Source: Barnesiella sp. WM24 (GTDB taxonomy: Bacteria > Bacteroidota > Bacteroidia > Bacteroidales > Muribaculaceae). Taken from it: 64,000 nt of DNA. This document shows, in pieces, positions 5,969 to 38,929 of the stretch. Where the stretch lies: NCBI RefSeq assembly GCF_004570975.1, contig NZ_SPPC01000008.1:1-64000 (forward strand), written 5' to 3'. Position 1 is the first letter of the stretch; every line of letters begins with the position of its first letter. The notes beneath the pieces were generated by a model. The model saw only the letters and a program-made list of their open reading frames with translations, had not been told where the DNA came from and ran no database searches. Made by a program: the position numbers and the translations under genes.

Positions 5969-7285
5969 ATGAAACAATCCGTAATACTTGAAAATATTTC
6001 CTCGCGTCTCGGCATTGCCGAGTTGAATCCGATGCAGCGGGAGCTGATGTCATCGCAGGCTCATGATGTGGTGCTTTTATCGCCCACCGGCTCCGGCAAG
6101 ACCGTTGCATTTACAATCTCAATGCTTCAGGCTCTCGGAAAGCCTAAGGGAGAGGTGCAGGCTGTAGTCATAGCCCCTTCCCGCGAGCTTGTAATGCAGA
6201 TTTACCGCGTTGTGCGTGAAGTCGCCACCGGCTATAAGACTGTGGCGCTTTATGGCGGACATTCGATGACTGATGAAAAAAACTCCCTGACCCCCGTACC
6301 CGACATTGTAATCGCTACGCCGGGACGTCTTCTCGACCATCTAAACCGAAAACTTCTCGACTTGTATAATACAAAGGTGCTTGTACTTGATGAATATGAC
6401 AAGTCGCTTGAACTTGGCTTTCACGACGAGATGAGGAAAATACTGCGGCTTATGCCAAATCTTAGCCGCACGGTGCTCACTTCGGCTACTCCGCTTTCCG
6501 ACAGGCTGCCTGAGTTCATGAAGGTTAAAAATCCCGTGGTCATGGATTTCCTGTCATCTGTGGCAAAACCGCGCACACGCATGTCGGTCGTCAGGGTAGA
6601 GAGTCCGGCTAAGGATAAAGTCGATACGCTTGTAGATCTTTTAAAGTCGCTTCCTAATGGCAGGGTGATTGTTTTTGTAAACCATCGCGAGAGTGCCACG
6701 CGACTATATGACCACTTGAAAAAAGCCGGTTTGCCTGTAGGCATCTATCATGGCGCGCTTGACCAGAATGACCGTGAGAAGGCTGTGGACCTGCTTAATA
6801 ACGGCACGACCCCTGTGCTTGTGTCGACCGATCTTGGGGCAAGAGGTCTTGACATCGAAGAGGTGAAATCGATAATACATTACCACATGCCCCTGACAAA
6901 GGAGACCTGGACTCACCGTAACGGCCGCACGGCACGAGTCGATGCGACTGGTACGATATATGTCATCACGTCGGAGTCCGATAATATTCCTGACTACGTT
7001 ACGTTTGACCGCTCTTATGTGCCTACCGGCACATCTGCCGACCCGATACATGCCGACTGTGCGACGCTTTATTTCAGCGCCGGCAGAAAAGAGCGTATCT
7101 CGCGAGGTGACATAGCCGGATTTCTAATGAAGACAGGCGGTCTTGCCGCTGACGAGGTGGGGCGTATCATAGTGCGTGACCACTCGGCTATAGTCGCAGT
7201 CCCTGCCGGCAAGGCTGACTCGGTCCTGCGCACAGTCGCTACTGAAAAAATCAAGGGCAAGAGAGTGAAGATTTCTAAATTGTAA
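5969..7285 (+). CDS. DEAD-box-type RNA helicase with a DbpA RNA-binding domain
   Basis: A 438-residue helicase. Domain 1: Q-motif-like PMQ, LSPTGSGKT (motif I), PSRELV (Ia), TPGRLLD (Ib), motif II read as DEYD instead of DEAD, TSAT (III). Domain 2: VIVFVNHRES (IV), TDLGARGLDI (V), HRNGRTAR (VI). The C-terminal ~75 residues (TLYFSAGRKERISRGDIAGFL ... GKRVKISKL) fit the DbpA RNA-binding domain, which in E. coli DbpA targets hairpin 92 of 23S rRNA. A role in large-subunit assembly is therefore likely. It heads a probable four-gene operon; the glycosyltransferase gene starts 12 bp downstream. Confidence 0.92.
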   Translation: MKQSVILENISSRLGIAELNPMQRELMSSQAHDVVLLSPTGSGKTVAFTISMLQALGKPKGEVQAVVIAPSRELVMQIYRVVREVATGYKTVALYGGHSMTDEKNSLTPVPDIVIATPGRLLDHLNRKLLDLYNTKVLVLDEYDKSLELGFHDEMRKILRLMPNLSRTVLTSATPLSDRLPEFMKVKNPVVMDFLSSVAKPRTRMSVVRVESPAKDKVDTLVDLLKSLPNGRVIVFVNHRESATRLYDHLKKAGLPVGIYHGALDQNDREKAVDLLNNGTTPVLVSTDLGARGLDIEEVKSIIHYHMPLTKETWTHRNGRTARVDATGTIYVITSESDNIPDYVTFDRSYVPTGTSADPIHADCATLYFSAGRKERISRGDIAGFLMKTGGLAADEVGRIIVRDHSAIVAVPAGKADSVLRTVATEKIKGKRVKISKL

Positions 7286-7297
7286 AGATATATACAT

Positions 7298-8626
7298 ATG
7301 ATTAATATAGAGCCGCTGTGTGACACCCGCAGCCTGAAATCGCTTATTACCTGTGTTGACAGTGATTATGTCATGGTGTCATTGTCAGTTGCCGGAGAAA
7401 ATGTGATTCCTATGCCTGATGCCGGGCATCGCATGGAGCAGGTTGCCCGCATGACAGGCGCAGCCATGGTTTATGCTGATTTCTATGATGTCAATGTTGA
7501 CGGCAGCCTGTCGCTTCATCAGCTTATCGACTGTCAGGAAGGGGCACTGCGCGATGACTTTGATTTCGGCAAACTGTTGTTGATTGATTCCCGCGCTTTA
7601 GTCAATGCGTCGGGGGCGATTGTCAGGGATTACCGTTATGCCGCGTTCTATGCGCTGCGTCTTGCTTTGTCACGGCAAGGTCCGGTCACACATCTTTCAG
7701 AGCCTGTCTACAAAGTAGAATCGGCATCGGGAGCGGTGTCACAATTTGATTATGTCGACCCCCGTAACCGGGAAGTCCAGATTGAGATGGAGCATGCCTG
7801 TTCCGACCACTTGAAGGCTGTAGGCGCATATCTTAATCCGGTCAATGATGATGTGGATTTTACGGGCGACTATCCCGTCGAGGCTTCCGTTGTTATACCT
7901 GTAAGAAACCGTCGGTCGACAATCATGGATGCCGTGGAGAGTGCCTTGTCGCAGGAAACGTCGTTCACTTACAATGTCATAGTTGTTGACAATCATTCTA
8001 CCGACGGCACTACTGAGGTGCTGCAGGATTTGGCTAAGAGAGACAGCCGCCTGTGTCATATCGTGCCTGAGATTACCGGACTCGGTATAGGAGGCTGCTG
8101 GAATCTTGCTGTCAATTCGCCCTGTTGCGGGCGTTTTGCGGTGCAGCTTGACAGTGACGACATCTACTCGTCGGCATCCACGCTACAGCGCATTGTAGAT
8201 AAATTCCATGCCGAGCGTTGTGCGTTGGTGGTCGGGGCTTATACGCTTACTGACTTTGATCGCAACGTCTTGGCTCCCGGATTGATTTCCCATGATGAAT
8301 GGAGCGATGAAAACGGTCGTAACAACGCGTTGCGTATAAACGGCTTCGGTGCGCCACGCGCCTTTTTTACCGGACTGGCAAGGAAAATACTATTTCCTGA
8401 CACGAGCTATGGGGAAGACTATGGCATGTGTCTTGCCATGTCGCGATGTCATAAGGTTGGCAGGATTTATGATTCTCTGTATCTCTGCCGCCGCTGGTCG
8501 GGCAATTCCGATGCGGCTCTCTCACTTGAAGCGGTTAACCGTAACAATATGTATAAAGACCGATTGCGCACATGGGAACTTATGGAGCGTAAGAGATTAA
8601 ACCTTCAGCGTGATGAAGAGAAGTGA
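7298..8626 (+). CDS. Family 2 glycosyltransferase
   Basis: A 442-residue soluble protein. From about residue 195 it has a GT-A fold of family GT2: ASVVIPVRNRRSTIMDAV, YNVIVVDNHSTDGT, and the nucleotide/metal motif QLDSDD (DxD-like). The first ~190 residues look like a separate N-terminal domain without obvious motifs. No membrane segment is visible, so it works in the cytoplasm on a soluble or membrane-surface acceptor; donor and acceptor cannot be told. Its end overlaps the start of the DUF4922-SpoIID gene, so the two proteins are made together. Context points to glycan or muropeptide metabolism. Confidence 0.85.
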   Translation: MINIEPLCDTRSLKSLITCVDSDYVMVSLSVAGENVIPMPDAGHRMEQVARMTGAAMVYADFYDVNVDGSLSLHQLIDCQEGALRDDFDFGKLLLIDSRALVNASGAIVRDYRYAAFYALRLALSRQGPVTHLSEPVYKVESASGAVSQFDYVDPRNREVQIEMEHACSDHLKAVGAYLNPVNDDVDFTGDYPVEASVVIPVRNRRSTIMDAVESALSQETSFTYNVIVVDNHSTDGTTEVLQDLAKRDSRLCHIVPEITGLGIGGCWNLAVNSPCCGRFAVQLDSDDIYSSASTLQRIVDKFHAERCALVVGAYTLTDFDRNVLAPGLISHDEWSDENGRNNALRINGFGAPRAFFTGLARKILFPDTSYGEDYGMCLAMSRCHKVGRIYDSLYLCRRWSGNSDAALSLEAVNRNNMYKDRLRTWELMERKRLNLQRDEEK

Positions 8627-10619
8627 CATAGACCTGTTTATATCAAGGCAGCTTGACTCATGGAGAGAGGCTGCCATTCGTCATGAGGCGTTATGTTCAG
8701 TCAAGACAAAAAGCGTGTGTGTCGGCGATACAGAGTGGAAAGTCATGTTTAATCCTGCAAGAAGTGTCAGCACTAATGCTAAGGTCGACGAGGAGTCGAT
8801 AAAGGCGCGCCGGTGTTTTCTGTGTGCGGAAAATCGTCCGGAAATGCAGTCTTCGGTCAGATGGAGAGACTATGACATACTTGTCAATCCGTTTCCGGTT
8901 TTTCCCGGTCATCTGACAATCGTGTTGAGGGCTCATGAAAGGCAGCTGCTGTCGGGGAGGGTTGACGATTTTGTCGACCTCGCCGCTGAGCTTGCGGGAT
9001 ATACCGTGTTTTATAATGGTGCGGGATGTGGTGCGTCTGCACCCGATCACTGTCATTTTCAGGCAGTGCCTGAAGAATACCTTCCGTTGAATAGGGAATA
9101 TCCCTTCCGCAGGATTTATTTTACCGGTGACTTGGACATGGTGAAGAAGCAGATGGGGCAAGCTATAGCGTCATTGCCGCTTGCCGGCTATGAAGAGCCG
9201 CAGTTTAATGCCGCGGTACATCACCGAGGTGACGGGACTTATGAGGCTGTGATAGTGCCTCGGGTCGCCCACCGTCCTTCATGTTATGATAAAGTGAAGA
9301 TAAGTCCGGGGGCGATAGACATGCTCGGCACCGTTATCACTACCTCCGCAGCCGATTATGATGCTGTCAACGGGGAGTTGCTTGCTTCCGTGTTTTCAGA
9401 AGTGGCTGTAGTGGATGAGACGCCTGTATTGCGGGTAGGCATCATGAGCGCAAAGGAAGTGAATTATTCTCTTCACGGTGAATACATAAGGGAGGGCGAC
9501 ACATTTTTTCCGTCATCTCCCGATTGCTGGTTTGAGCTTGACGATGTGACAATCGGTGTGGATTTTCATTGGGAACGCAAGGAGTGTCAGCGTTTTCACG
9601 GAGCCTTGCAGCTTATGAAGGGAGATGACGGGATGGAGACTGCGGTCAACATAATTTCGGTAGAAGAGTATCTGATGAGTGTAATCTCTTCCGAGATGAG
9701 TGCGGAGGCATCACCGGCACTGCTACGCGCCCATGCAGTGATTTCACGGAGCTGGGTGCTCGCCCAGTTGGGCGCGAAGAAGCTTCCGTCGTCAAACACC
9801 TGCACGGTCAGTGACGCAGAGACTGTAAAATGGTATGATCATGACGACCATGCCGGATTTGATGTGTGTGCCGATGACCATTGTCAGCGTTATCAGGGTA
9901 TTACTAGGGTTACACGTTCGGAGGCACGCGATGCGGTCATGGAGACACGCGGGGAGGTGATGATTGCCGGAGGCAGGTTGTGTGACACCCGTTTCTCAAA
10001 ATGTTGCGGAGGCGCTTTTGAGGAATTTGAGAATTGCTGGGAACCGGTAAGACATAGCTATCTTGTTGGGGCGAGGGATCTTTTGCCTGCCGGTTCACTG
10101 CCTGACTTGCGCATCGAGGCGGCGGCATGTGACTGGATAATGTCGCGCCCTGACGCGTTTTGCTCGCGTGCCACTCCCGGCATATTGCGTCAGGTATTGA
10201 ATGACTATGACCGTGCGACAACTGATTTTTATCGTTGGAAGGTCGATTATAGTGTTGAGGAACTGTCGGCGATTGTCCGTGAACGGTCTGGTATTGATTT
10301 CGGTGATATAGTCGAGCTGCGTCCGCTTGCGCGCGGCACATCGGGCAGGATATACCGTCTTGAGATTGTCGGGACAAAGCATACCCACATCGTGGGAAAG
10401 GAGCTTGAGATACGCCGCTGGCTCTCCCGCAGCCATCTTTACAGCTCGGCATTTGTGCCGGTCAGGACCGATGCCGGGTTTACGCTCTACGGCGCGGGAT
10501 GGGGACATGGTGTCGGTTTGTGCCAGATTGGTGCTGCAGTGATGGGAGCTGAGGGTTATGATTATCGTGAAATACTACTACATTATTTTAAGGATGCTGA
10601 AATCAAGAAACTCTACTGA
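8613..10619 (+). CDS. DUF4922 (GalT/HIT-like) - SpoIID/LytB fusion protein
   Basis: A 668-residue two-domain protein. Residues ~1-290 match DUF4922: a CFLC zinc-type motif near residue 69, then NGAGCGASAPDHCHFQ with H-x-H-x-Q at ~146-150, the active-site pattern of the GalT/Ap4A-phosphorylase branch of the HIT superfamily. Residues ~270-665 are a complete SpoIID/LytB domain: VEEYLMSVISSEMS with the Glu that acts in lytic transglycosylation, LLRAHAVISRSW, and near the end GAGWGHGVGLCQIGA. There is no signal peptide or membrane segment, odd for SpoIID domains, which normally act outside the cell. ATG 8613 is used; a GTG sits just before it at 8610. It overlaps the genes on both sides. Confidence 0.85.
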   Translation: MKRSDIDLFISRQLDSWREAAIRHEALCSVKTKSVCVGDTEWKVMFNPARSVSTNAKVDEESIKARRCFLCAENRPEMQSSVRWRDYDILVNPFPVFPGHLTIVLRAHERQLLSGRVDDFVDLAAELAGYTVFYNGAGCGASAPDHCHFQAVPEEYLPLNREYPFRRIYFTGDLDMVKKQMGQAIASLPLAGYEEPQFNAAVHHRGDGTYEAVIVPRVAHRPSCYDKVKISPGAIDMLGTVITTSAADYDAVNGELLASVFSEVAVVDETPVLRVGIMSAKEVNYSLHGEYIREGDTFFPSSPDCWFELDDVTIGVDFHWERKECQRFHGALQLMKGDDGMETAVNIISVEEYLMSVISSEMSAEASPALLRAHAVISRSWVLAQLGAKKLPSSNTCTVSDAETVKWYDHDDHAGFDVCADDHCQRYQGITRVTRSEARDAVMETRGEVMIAGGRLCDTRFSKCCGGAFEEFENCWEPVRHSYLVGARDLLPAGSLPDLRIEAAACDWIMSRPDAFCSRATPGILRQVLNDYDRATTDFYRWKVDYSVEELSAIVRERSGIDFGDIVELRPLARGTSGRIYRLEIVGTKHTHIVGKELEIRRWLSRSHLYSSAFVPVRTDAGFTLYGAGWGHGVGLCQIGAAVMGAEGYDYREILLHYFKDAEIKKLY

Positions 10620-11907
10620 CCGTCGTGTCTCGCCCTGGAGTTGGGTGTCGACGCTCTATTTTGCGCAGGGGCTGCCTTATGTGGCGGTGATGACTATCTC
10701 GGTGATAATGTATAAGCGTCTTGGTATATCCAACACTGATATAGCGCTCTATACCTCGTGGTTGTATCTGCCGTGGGTGATAAAGCCATTCTGGAGTCCG
10801 GTGGTCGATCTGTTCCGGACAAAGCGATGGTGGATTATAATGATGGAATTGCTTATCGCAATCGGGTTTGCCGGAGTTGCGTTTACTATACCGGCTACAT
10901 TTTTCTTCCAGTCCACGCTTGCCGTGTTCTGGGCTATCGCTTTTGTAAGTGCTACCCATGACATAGCTGCCGACGGCTATTATATGATTGCATTGTCGGA
11001 GCATGACCAGTCGTTTTATGTCGGTATACGCAGTACGTTTTATCGCATATCCACCATCGTCGGTCAAGGACTGCTGGTTATGCTTGCCGGATACATAGAG
11101 AGCCGCAATGACGCGGTTTTGCCGGGAGAAAGCATGGATTATACACCTCTTGCATGGATGGTGGTCATGGCTGTGCTGTCGGTATTTTTTCTTCTGGTCT
11201 CGCTTTACCACCGGCTCGTCTTGCCGCGCTCTGCCTCCGATCATCCGGTGCCCGGAGTGACATTGCGTAATGTCGGGAAGGAATTCCTTTCGACATTCAT
11301 TTCATTTTTTAAGAAACCTAATGTAGGCGTGGCTGTCGCTTTTATGCTGCTTTACCGCTTCCCGGAGGCACAGCTTGTAAAGATGATAAATCCGTTTTTG
11401 CTTGACGGCAGGGATGTGGGCGGTCTTGGGCTTTCTACGGCTCAGGTAGGTTTTGTATATGGCACGATAGGTATCATCGGGCTTACACTCGGGGGTATCG
11501 TCGGAGGTATAGTGGCTGCCCGCGGCGGATTGAAGAAGTGGCTTATGCCTATGGCCTGGAGCATTTCGCTGACTTGCGGGACATTCTTGTATCTTGCCAT
11601 TGTGCAGCCCGACGACATGCTGTCGGTCAACATATGTGTGTTTGTTGAGCAGTTTGGCTATGGTTTCGGATTCACTGCTTACATGCTGTATCTCATTTAT
11701 TTCAGTGAAGGACCGTTCCGCACGGCACATTACGCCATATGCACCGGTTTTATGGCCCTTGGCATGATGTTGCCCGGCATGATGGCGGGATGGTTGCAGG
11801 AGATGATGGGGTATTGTGGATTTTTCTGGTGGATTATTGGCTGCTGTGTGGCTACAATAGCCGTGACATCGCTGATAAAGGTCCCGGCATCTTTCGGCAA
11901 AAAATAA
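10594..11907 (+). CDS. AmpG-like major facilitator (muropeptide permease family)
   Basis: A 437-residue membrane protein with about 12 hydrophobic segments. The start (PWSWVSTLYFAQGLPYVAV) and the first loops (SWLYLPWVIKPFWSPVVDL, then ATHDIAADGYYM) follow the AmpG family, which imports anhydro-muropeptides for cell-wall recycling. ATG 10594 gives the usual AmpG N-terminus; the in-frame ATG at 10558 lies deep in the upstream gene. Either way it overlaps the DUF4922-SpoIID gene. It is the last gene of the helicase operon and ends in a strong hairpin. The substrate is inferred from the family and from the SpoIID neighbour. Confidence 0.85.
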   Translation: MLKSRNSTDRRVSPWSWVSTLYFAQGLPYVAVMTISVIMYKRLGISNTDIALYTSWLYLPWVIKPFWSPVVDLFRTKRWWIIMMELLIAIGFAGVAFTIPATFFFQSTLAVFWAIAFVSATHDIAADGYYMIALSEHDQSFYVGIRSTFYRISTIVGQGLLVMLAGYIESRNDAVLPGESMDYTPLAWMVVMAVLSVFFLLVSLYHRLVLPRSASDHPVPGVTLRNVGKEFLSTFISFFKKPNVGVAVAFMLLYRFPEAQLVKMINPFLLDGRDVGGLGLSTAQVGFVYGTIGIIGLTLGGIVGGIVAARGGLKKWLMPMAWSISLTCGTFLYLAIVQPDDMLSVNICVFVEQFGYGFGFTAYMLYLIYFSEGPFRTAHYAICTGFMALGMMLPGMMAGWLQEMMGYCGFFWWIIGCCVATIAVTSLIKVPASFGKK

Positions 11908-11930
11908 GAGCCGGTTTTTTAACCGGCTCT
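11907..11930. terminator. Bidirectional terminator between AmpG-like and META genes
   Basis: A 10-bp perfect stem AGAGCCGGTT/AACCGGCTCT with a T4 loop, beginning at the last base of the plus-strand stop codon. On the minus strand it is followed by TTATTTTTTG, so it can serve the convergent META gene too. Confidence 0.85.
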
Positions 11931-11962
11931 GTTATCTGCTGTAGGATTGTCGACAGGGCGTG

Positions 11963-12814
11963 TTACTGACGCTCGACATCCACTTTTTTCAACACCAGTA
12001 CGGGGGTGTTGTTCTTGTCCATCATTACAACCGTGCCGGTTCTGCCTTTCTTGGCATATTCAACACTTTCGAGCGCGACAAGAAGGGCTGTCTCTCCCTT
12101 CATGATTTCCTCCGGACATGCCATGCGTGTTGTTCCGAGATTCTGGAATTGAATGGAGTTGGACTTGTCAGGGTCAATCATTAGTGAGCCGTTGACAATA
12201 TTGCATCCGGTGTTGCCATGAAGTTTCTGTTCCTGAATGTCGATGACCATCTGCATGTCGGGGTTGTCATATGCCTTGCCGTTTATTTCCGATACTTCCC
12301 ATGTGCCGTTCAGGAAGTCCATGTTGTGTTTGCGGAGAGTCATCAGATTTGCTCCCTTGCTGTCGCGTAGCTCAAGATAATACTCGTGACCTTTTTTTGT
12401 TATGTCAAATGACTGTACTGCCGCAAGCGCCAGATTGATAGCCTGTTCATAAGGAGCGTCGTGACACATCATCATTGTCGAGATGACATTGCCTATCTTT
12501 AACTTTGAGCCTCCTGAAAGTTCAAAATCGCCATTTATGATATTACAGCCGTTTGAGCCATATATTCTGTGGTCATCCATGTTGAAGTTGATGTAGGGGC
12601 GTGTCTCTCCTGTCACCTTGTTGCCGCCTACGGTGTAGACAGTCCATTCACCGGCGAGAGCGTCTGACGAAATCTTTGAGTGGTTGGGTTGCGTTACAAC
12701 CGGTTGTTGTGTCGTTGTCTGAGATTGGGTACCGGTACTTTTTTTAGTCACTCCACAAGATGTGACGAGCGATGCAATGATTGTCATGCCGGCTATAAGT
12801 CTGAATTTATTCAT
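11963..12814 (-). CDS. Lipoprotein with two META domains
   Basis: A 283-residue lipoprotein: the signal ends in LVTSC, so Cys ~20 is lipidated, and no Asp follows it. Two META (HslJ-like) domains follow: the first from LAGEWTVYTVGG through YGSNGCNIINGDF to MMMC, the second from LNGTWEVSEINGK through HGNTGCNIVNG to TRMACP. The matching GSNGCN / GNTGCN motifs and downstream Cys suggest a duplication. META domains occur in heat-shock and secreted proteins of unclear function. It stands alone behind a 77-bp gap from the MBL gene and may be the tail of the murB operon. Confidence 0.88.
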   Translation of the reverse strand: MNKFRLIAGMTIIASLVTSCGVTKKSTGTQSQTTTQQPVVTQPNHSKISSDALAGEWTVYTVGGNKVTGETRPYINFNMDDHRIYGSNGCNIINGDFELSGGSKLKIGNVISTMMMCHDAPYEQAINLALAAVQSFDITKKGHEYYLELRDSKGANLMTLRKHNMDFLNGTWEVSEINGKAYDNPDMQMVIDIQEQKLHGNTGCNIVNGSLMIDPDKSNSIQFQNLGTTRMACPEEIMKGETALLVALESVEYAKKGRTGTVVMMDKNNTPVLVLKKVDVERQ

Positions 12815-38882: not shown

Positions 38883-38929
38883 AAAAAAAATACTTCCGGT
38901 CGGTGATTTAAATCGCTGACCGGAAGTAT
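38883..38929 (-). terminator. Rho-independent terminator of the CoA-transferase gene
   Basis: A 12-bp perfect outer stem (38890-38901 with 38918-38929) continues inward through two mismatches, and on the minus strand is followed by TTTTTTTT. It lies about 20 bp behind the stop codon. Confidence 0.9.

Follow-up and report, generated by a model that had tools for sequence, protein, structure and literature searches.

A DUF4922-SpoIID fusion gene of Barnesiella and the conserved, probably cytosolic enzyme module linked to AmpG in the Bacteroidales

The locus

The window analysed here, positions 1 to 64,000 (forward strand) of contig NZ_SPPC01000008.1 of Barnesiella sp. WM24 (Bacteroidales; Muribaculaceae; RefSeq assembly GCF_004570975.1), carries a gene in which a HIT-like DUF4922 domain is fused to a SpoIID/LytB domain, and which overlaps the gene for a GT2 glycosyltransferase on one side and the gene for an AmpG-like permease on the other, all three on the + strand. 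The fusion gene begins at 8610 (GTG) or 8613 (ATG) and ends at 10619, encoding 669 or 668 amino acids, respectively; its residues are numbered from the GTG. The set of genes belongs to a conserved, AmpG-tied enzyme module of the Bacteroidales, of which the window gene is a fused form.

The N-terminal half of the protein matches DUF4922 (PF16269) at residues 10-153 (8637..9068; E 1.4e-54) and also the Pfam family Ap4A_phos_N (E 2.5e-9). Among solved structures, the DUF4922 profile lies nearest to Ap4A phosphorylase 2 (4i5t; 3.1e-7), a nearness that points to nucleotidyl chemistry rather than to any particular substrate. The motifs C69-x-x-C72 (8814-8825) and H147-x-H149-x-Q151 (9048-9062) are both intact, and all five named residues are invariant in the alignment of 89 DUF4922 sequences, so that the histidines on whose retention the original prediction had staked its reading are kept in every one.

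The SpoIID/LytB domain (9639..10610) is recognized by TIGR02669 of NCBIfam (residues 344-667; 142.5 bits vs. a cut-off of 83.3), by PF08486 (residues 342-451; E 2.1e-21, 76.8 bits vs. a cut-off of 23) and by the match of its profile to the solved SpoIID structure 4rwr (4.2e-27). It contains E362 (9693-9695), the segment C420...H424-C425-Q426 (C420, H424 and C425 within 9867-9884) and GWGHGVG at residues 630-636 (10497-10517). We call E362 catalytic from its aligned position and from E88 of the Bacillus subtilis protein (PMC6635528; this and the other articles are cited here from excerpts). E362, H424, G632 and H633 are invariant in all 57 full-length SpoIID sequences of the window's type, as are S381, W382, S463 and K464. 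This conservation in relatives shows that neither the HIT nor the SpoIID motifs have decayed, and the fusion of two domains with intact motifs is real, far beyond chance. The original prediction had listed the same four features, the H-x-H-x-Q and C-x-x-C motifs, the glutamate and GWGHGVG, in a GalT/HIT-like protein joined to SpoIID; Pfam, NCBIfam and the alignments bear out each of them. The fusion gene is the sole DUF4922 match and the sole SpoIID match in its genome, and the nearest named relative found comes from Heminiphilus faecis (Muribaculaceae, Bacteroidales), with 62% identity.

Upstream, the GT2 gene (7298..8626; 442 aa; Pfam Glycos_transf_2, 6.6e-20) encodes a GT-A domain from residue 197 on, with conserved DSDD and GEDY motifs; its first 196 residues have no Pfam match, and a profile built from 32 relatives finds chondroitin synthase (2z87; 1.9e-21) as the nearest solved structure. 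Its overlap with the fusion gene is 17 bases if the latter begins at the GTG and 14 if it begins at the ATG. Downstream, the gene for the AmpG-like permease of the major facilitator superfamily (10594..11907) lies in a frame open from 10558, and its relatives in loci L036 and L039 begin at the equivalent of the ATG at 10594; from that codon it shares 26 bases with the fusion gene, exactly as in those two loci. The permease matches TIGR00901 (1.3e-47) with 162.4 bits, under the cut-off of 350, as does the AmpG of L098, a locus with the gene order of Tannerella forsythia (174.3 bits); the AmpG profile matches the solved AmpG structure 8zgz (3.3e-32) over positions 48-420 of 425. The overlap of both neighbours with the fusion gene agrees with what had been predicted, and the interval then given, 8613-11907, covers the fusion and the permease; the GT2 gene falls outside it.

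Distribution and gene neighbourhood

A PF16269 search of 392 Bacteroidales genomes found DUF4922 in 103. Across a sample of 197 genomes of the class it gave seven positives, every one a member of the Bacteroidales. SpoIID accompanies DUF4922 in 102 of the 103 order-wide positives; G344, with a DUF4922 match of E 3.1e-5 and neither SpoIID nor AmpG, is probably a false hit and was left in all counts. Two sets of loci were compared. The first, L036-L091 (56 loci, with L087 lacking DUF4922), came from a scan with the fusion's own peptides and is therefore biased toward SpoIID of the window's type: of its 55 named DUF4922 loci, 53 have GT2 adjacent or fused, all 55 have SpoIID and 53 have AmpG nearby. 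The second, 40 further loci from across the families of the 103 positive genomes, was hand-picked rather than random, and has GT2 in 36, SpoIID in 29 and AmpG in 32. The predicted conservation of a GT2-DUF4922-SpoIID-AmpG neighbourhood is thus seen in both.

Fusion has taken several forms. DUF4922 is joined to SpoIID alone in 19 of the 55 named loci, to GT2 alone in three and to both in three; the corresponding numbers among the 40 order-wide loci are three, two and two, and the three-part GT2-DUF4922-SpoIID fusion is represented by six distinct genes. In several genomes the SpoIID gene stands at a separate site, sometimes with its own copy of GT2 or with AmpG. Frequent neighbours in relatives are genes for NamZ, a MurT-like and a MurK-like protein, and an upstream Golvesin_C gene. 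The fullest arrangement is that of L098, which reads XANL-GT2-DUF4922-SpoIID-AmpG-NamZ-MurT-MurK-MurQ. NamZ was named by Pfam, whereas MurT, MurK and the MurQ of L098 were named by gene order (MurQ being recognized by eye), the MurT-like and MurK-like genes matching DUF5009 and BcrAD_BadFG of Pfam, respectively, below the cut-off.

The members of the cluster vary in other ways as well. Tandem GT2 copies stand ahead of DUF4922 in L047, L048, L074, L075, L077 and L080. AmpG open reading frames (ORFs) exceed 600 aa in 23 of 107 cases (e.g. L045:10274-12181 and L063:10258-12168), and the four large ones viewed have, by eye, a soluble insert of about 200 residues in the loop that joins transmembrane helix 5 to helix 6, probably outside the membrane. 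Tandem AmpG-like genes lie downstream of SpoIID in L082, L083 and L085, and the copies next to SpoIID in L082 and L083 share only 21 and 24% identity, respectively, with the window's AmpG. The gene at the position printed as xanthan lyase in T. forsythia (L065:3495-6497) matches Golvesin_C, with Amidase_3 below the cut-off; 34 of 40 upstream ORFs of this Golvesin_C type are above our N-terminal hydropathy threshold, and their product may be an exported wall amidase. L039 comes from a contig titled as a Lachnospiraceae metagenome-assembled genome, perhaps mis-assigned, and carries a three-part fusion of a kind otherwise found in Bacteroidales.

Cellular location

To our knowledge, SpoIID proteins are thought to act outside the cytoplasm. 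The N-terminus of the fusion, MMKRSDIDLFISRQ, has no signal peptide as judged by eye, and stand-alone SpoIID genes of the window's type begin almost directly at the domain. Of 105 such ORFs (92 distinct), 101 fall under the hydropathy threshold and the remaining four cross it, by eye, through the first strands of the domain itself, so that a signal peptide was seen in none by hydropathy and inspection. NamZ of the same loci is above the threshold in 57 of 60 cases. Nor was an export signal seen in the sequence of any of the GT2, DUF4922 or SpoIID enzymes. Export of window-type SpoIID by a recognizable signal was rejected. The missing signals in the stand-alone ORFs, together with the fusions to the HIT domain and GT2, make a cytosolic location very likely, as the original prediction had proposed for the fusion protein.

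A second type of SpoIID, with shorter matches, occurs in the same order: 19 of its 20 ORFs are above the threshold and the twentieth looks signal-like by eye. In a tree that included 65 of 130 sequences (45 of the 110 of window type and all 20 of the other), a single branch with a support of 99 separates the two. E362 and G632-H633 are common to both types. Seventeen of the 20 exported-type sequences come from genomes with AnmK, and five from genomes that also have DUF4922, showing that the two types can coexist.

Co-occurrence with AmpG, AnmK and MurQ

Presence of AmpG was scored with a profile of the window-type protein (E up to 1e-20) on 80 genomes picked to represent many DUF4922/AnmK states per family, so that the percentages are not frequencies and the contrasts on the tree are enriched. 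Of the 40 genomes with DUF4922, 39 have an AmpG match, vs. 5 of the 40 without it and none of the 25 with AnmK only. In an RpoB tree covering 78 of the 80 (G406 had no marker match and G418 a split marker), AmpG follows DUF4922 in 15 of 21 independent pairs that differ in DUF4922, and opposes it in none (p 6e-5). The neighbourhood counts and these pairs together rule out chance adjacency of GT2, DUF4922, SpoIID and AmpG. Of the five genomes with AmpG and without DUF4922, G281 carries a window-type SpoIID gene (L168) and G407 probably does, judging from its own match and from its genus-mate G518 (L170); in the other three, AmpG scores 378-389 bits, about the level of second AmpG copies elsewhere.

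AnmK and DUF4922 occur together in 13 of the 392 genomes, DUF4922 alone in 90, AnmK alone in 238 and neither in 51. Strict replacement of AnmK by the module is ruled out by those 13 genomes and by the tree test considered below. In the 80-genome set, 35 of the 44 AmpG-positive genomes have no AnmK, and 11 genomes with DUF4922 and AmpG, the window's included, have neither an AnmK nor a MurQ match. The association of MurQ with DUF4922 is only partial (28 of 40 DUF4922-positive vs. 6 of 40 negative genomes).

The window's genome has no PF03702 match for AnmK and no MurQ beyond weak partial matches. NamZ, MurT, MurK and MurQ are all missing beside its GT2-fusion-AmpG core, NamZ lying away from it on contig C1 at position 38893. 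With the NCBIfam MurU profile (cut-off 250 bits) none of 42 genomes passes, all 14 control genomes also matching below the cut-off, and the best match in the window's genome (133 bits at C40:109805) falls under it as the controls do. The core is flanked upstream by a gene for a DEAD helicase with a DbpA domain (5969-7285) and downstream, on the opposite strand, by one for a probable lipoprotein, recognized by eye (11907-12814, - strand); a terminator-like hairpin was scored on the - strand at 11907-11930.

Proposed function

Enzymes that have no export signal, are repeatedly fused to each other, lie mostly beside AmpG and are gained and lost with it argue for a cytosolic module working with that permease. 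We hold it very probable that GT2, DUF4922 and SpoIID are cytosolic and coupled to AmpG; the link to muropeptide salvage that had been predicted is supported. A more specific reading, that the three serve as a module for AmpG imports, chiefly N-acetylglucosamine-1,6-anhydro-N-acetylmuramic acid (GlcNAc-anhMurNAc), is put forward tentatively. As far as sequence can tell, location and pathway are supported; the case for the reaction is weaker.

The usual product of the lytic-transglycosylase fold is GlcNAc-1,6-anhydroMurNAc. AmpG would bring this disaccharide into the cytosol, where the SpoIID domain would meet the normal product of its own family and open the anhydro bond through attack of water or another acceptor on C1. 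That SpoIID opens or transfers the 1,6-anhydro bond is plausible, at somewhat less than even chances. Opening of the ring would give a normal MurNAc reducing end, usable by the MurK/MurQ or AmgK/MurU routes, and AnmK would then not be required. The HIT domain might next add a nucleotidyl group to a sugar-1-phosphate or remove one from it, with GT2 using or yielding the nucleotide sugar; these two roles are speculative and rather doubtful. A bolder and unlikely version has SpoIID running "backwards", the energy of the anhydro bond passing the disaccharide to water, phosphate or a sugar and the product going on to the HIT domain and GT2. If true, this would be an energy-conserving salvage of peptidoglycan with no need for AnmK, carried out in some species by a single polypeptide that holds all three enzymes.

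These ideas find a context in T. forsythia. Its operon Tanf_08345-08385 (ampG-murTKQ) is given in the legend of Fig. 2 of PMC5388701 as "xanthan lyase", gtf, gtf, lytB, ampG, ybbC, murT, murK and murQ, so the earlier view that no described pathway holds this set is not supported, though in the excerpts of that article gtf, gtf and lytB appear as names only, with no role. The AmpG of this species, Tanf_08365, was shown to act in muropeptide uptake, and transport of anhydro-muropeptides is reported (PMC5388701, PMC7670621). The organism is a MurNAc auxotroph with no predicted AnmK; the wild type reaches an optical density (OD) of about 0.8 on digests rich in GlcNAc-anhMurNAc, on which the ampG deletion does not grow, and the authors leave the anhMurNAc route for future exploration (PMC7670621). 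Growth on GlcNAc-anhMurNAc with no predicted AnmK calls for a step that opens the anhydro ring ahead of MurK or AmgK, and a cytosolic SpoIID protein seems to be encoded in the operon. The weak growth that free anhMurNAc supports would be expected of an enzyme favouring the disaccharide, and poor uptake would explain it too; since some growth does occur, the single sugar may serve as a substrate as well. One SpoIID protein of the Chlamydiales gave mainly non-anhydro products from naked glycan (PMC6635528), so water can be the acceptor in this fold. In the open-licence literature, as far as its excerpts go, no paper was found that gives a function to the GT2/DUF4922/SpoIID trio, and the mentions of DUF4922 found there were in two plant papers only.

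Several observations weigh against the ring-opening proposal. Ring opening alone leaves GT2 unaccounted for. Some genomes can do without DUF4922: G576 (L169) lacks it but carries GT2-SpoIID-AmpG, and G281, which also lacks it, pairs its window-type SpoIID with AmpG. Where the window type has S463-K464, 16 of the 20 exported-type sequences have His next to Phe, and where it has S381-W382 they have Thr (19/20) and Tyr (18/20), changes that may mean another reaction. The mutual exclusion of AnmK and DUF4922 lies mainly between families; within the seven families in which both vary, six genomes have both vs. 9.2 expected (p 0.028), a weak signal, and the tree test is not significant (21 pairs; mean 3.7 opposed and 0.1 same; median p 0.125). 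Nine of the 39 genomes with DUF4922 and AmpG keep AnmK, so replacement is not strict. Opening of anhydro sugars in vivo is not known to us from any enzyme of the lytic-transglycosylase fold. The AmpG of T. forsythia also imports GlcNAc-MurNAc, on which growth is better (OD about 1.3), and free anhMurNAc gives some growth (OD about 0.32; PMC7670621). The anhydro-disaccharide need not, then, be the module's main substrate, and use of GlcNAc-MurNAc needs no ring opening. Finally, the Chlamydiales SpoIID depends on a different acidic residue (PMC6635528).

Other explanations

The original prediction had glycan pieces being cut, and SpoIID might indeed work in its usual direction, with lytic-transglycosylase or muramidase activity toward imported pieces larger than disaccharides. 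The glutamate, C-H-C-Q and GHG segments shared with exported SpoIID would suit such a cutter, as would the digestion of naked glycan strands reported for B. subtilis SpoIID (PMC6635528), the amidase-like upstream gene (a match below the cut-off) and the large insert in 23 of 107 AmpG ORFs, which may mean another specificity. The substrates printed for AmpG, however, are the disaccharides GlcNAc-anhMurNAc and, in T. forsythia, GlcNAc-MurNAc (PMC7670621, PMC5388701), and cutting is less likely because these hold no MurNAc-GlcNAc bond; we regard it as improbable. Less probable still is a SpoIID domain without catalysis, a scaffold or sensor that binds imported muropeptides and presents them to the HIT domain and GT2. 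Such a role would account for S381, W382, S463 and K464 in place of the residues common in the exported type, but those four, like E362 and the other shared residues, are kept in 57 of 57 sequences, which an altered active site fits better than decay.

We give a similarly small chance to the possibility that the trio makes or edits protein or lipid glycans, AmpG and the MurNAc genes being only co-regulated with it. The T. forsythia operon has been termed glycosylation-related, from earlier work (PMC5388701), and the solved structure nearest to GT2 is a polysaccharide synthase; set against this are the joint gain or loss with AmpG in 15 of the 21 independent pairs and the many loci in which genes for NamZ and for MurT-, MurK- and MurQ-like proteins share the trio's operon. 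Hardly credible, finally, is a non-classical exit of the protein from the cytoplasm to cut wall glycan outside. Exported SpoIID proteins do exist in the same order, and L128, a long three-part fusion ORF, has a hydrophobic stretch ahead of its probable start, but fusion to a HIT domain and GT2 and the lack of a signal in all 105 stand-alone ORFs, vs. 57 of 60 NamZ above the threshold, speak for the cytosol.

The original interpretation is on the whole partly supported. The proposed module offers three candidate enzymes for the use of anhMurNAc without AnmK, in T. forsythia and other Bacteroidales, and places DUF4922 in a pathway context; a cytosolic SpoIID would, if true, be an exception to action outside the cytoplasm.

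Comparison with known systems

The gene order printed for the T. forsythia ampG-murTKQ operon matches that of L098 from XANL to MurQ; from this order, we take its second "gtf" to be DUF4922, its "lytB" to be window-type SpoIID and its ybbC to be NamZ. MurQ was not found in the window's genome beyond the weak partial matches, and the window groups only GT2, the fusion and AmpG, with DUF4922 and SpoIID as one protein. With the AmpG-NagZ-AnmK recycling of Escherichia coli the module shares an AmpG-like importer, but an AnmK match is absent from the window's genome as from most of the AmpG-positive ones. DUF4922 resembles Ap4A phosphorylase of the HIT family in its H-x-H-x-Q motif, its profile match to Ap4A phosphorylase 2 and its Ap4A_phos_N match, and is presumably kin to the branch of GalT and GDP-L-galactose phosphorylase; it differs from all of these in a near-invariant CFLC segment and in being fused to, or near, SpoIID. 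The window's SpoIID has, like the SpoIID/LytB lytic transglycosylases of B. subtilis, Clostridioides and Chlamydiales, the full domain by hidden Markov model, the glutamate, the Cys/His motif and GHGVG. Unlike them, it is of a type that has no export signal, is changed at residues 381-382 and 463-464, is fused to a HIT domain and sometimes to GT2, and lies mostly near AmpG.

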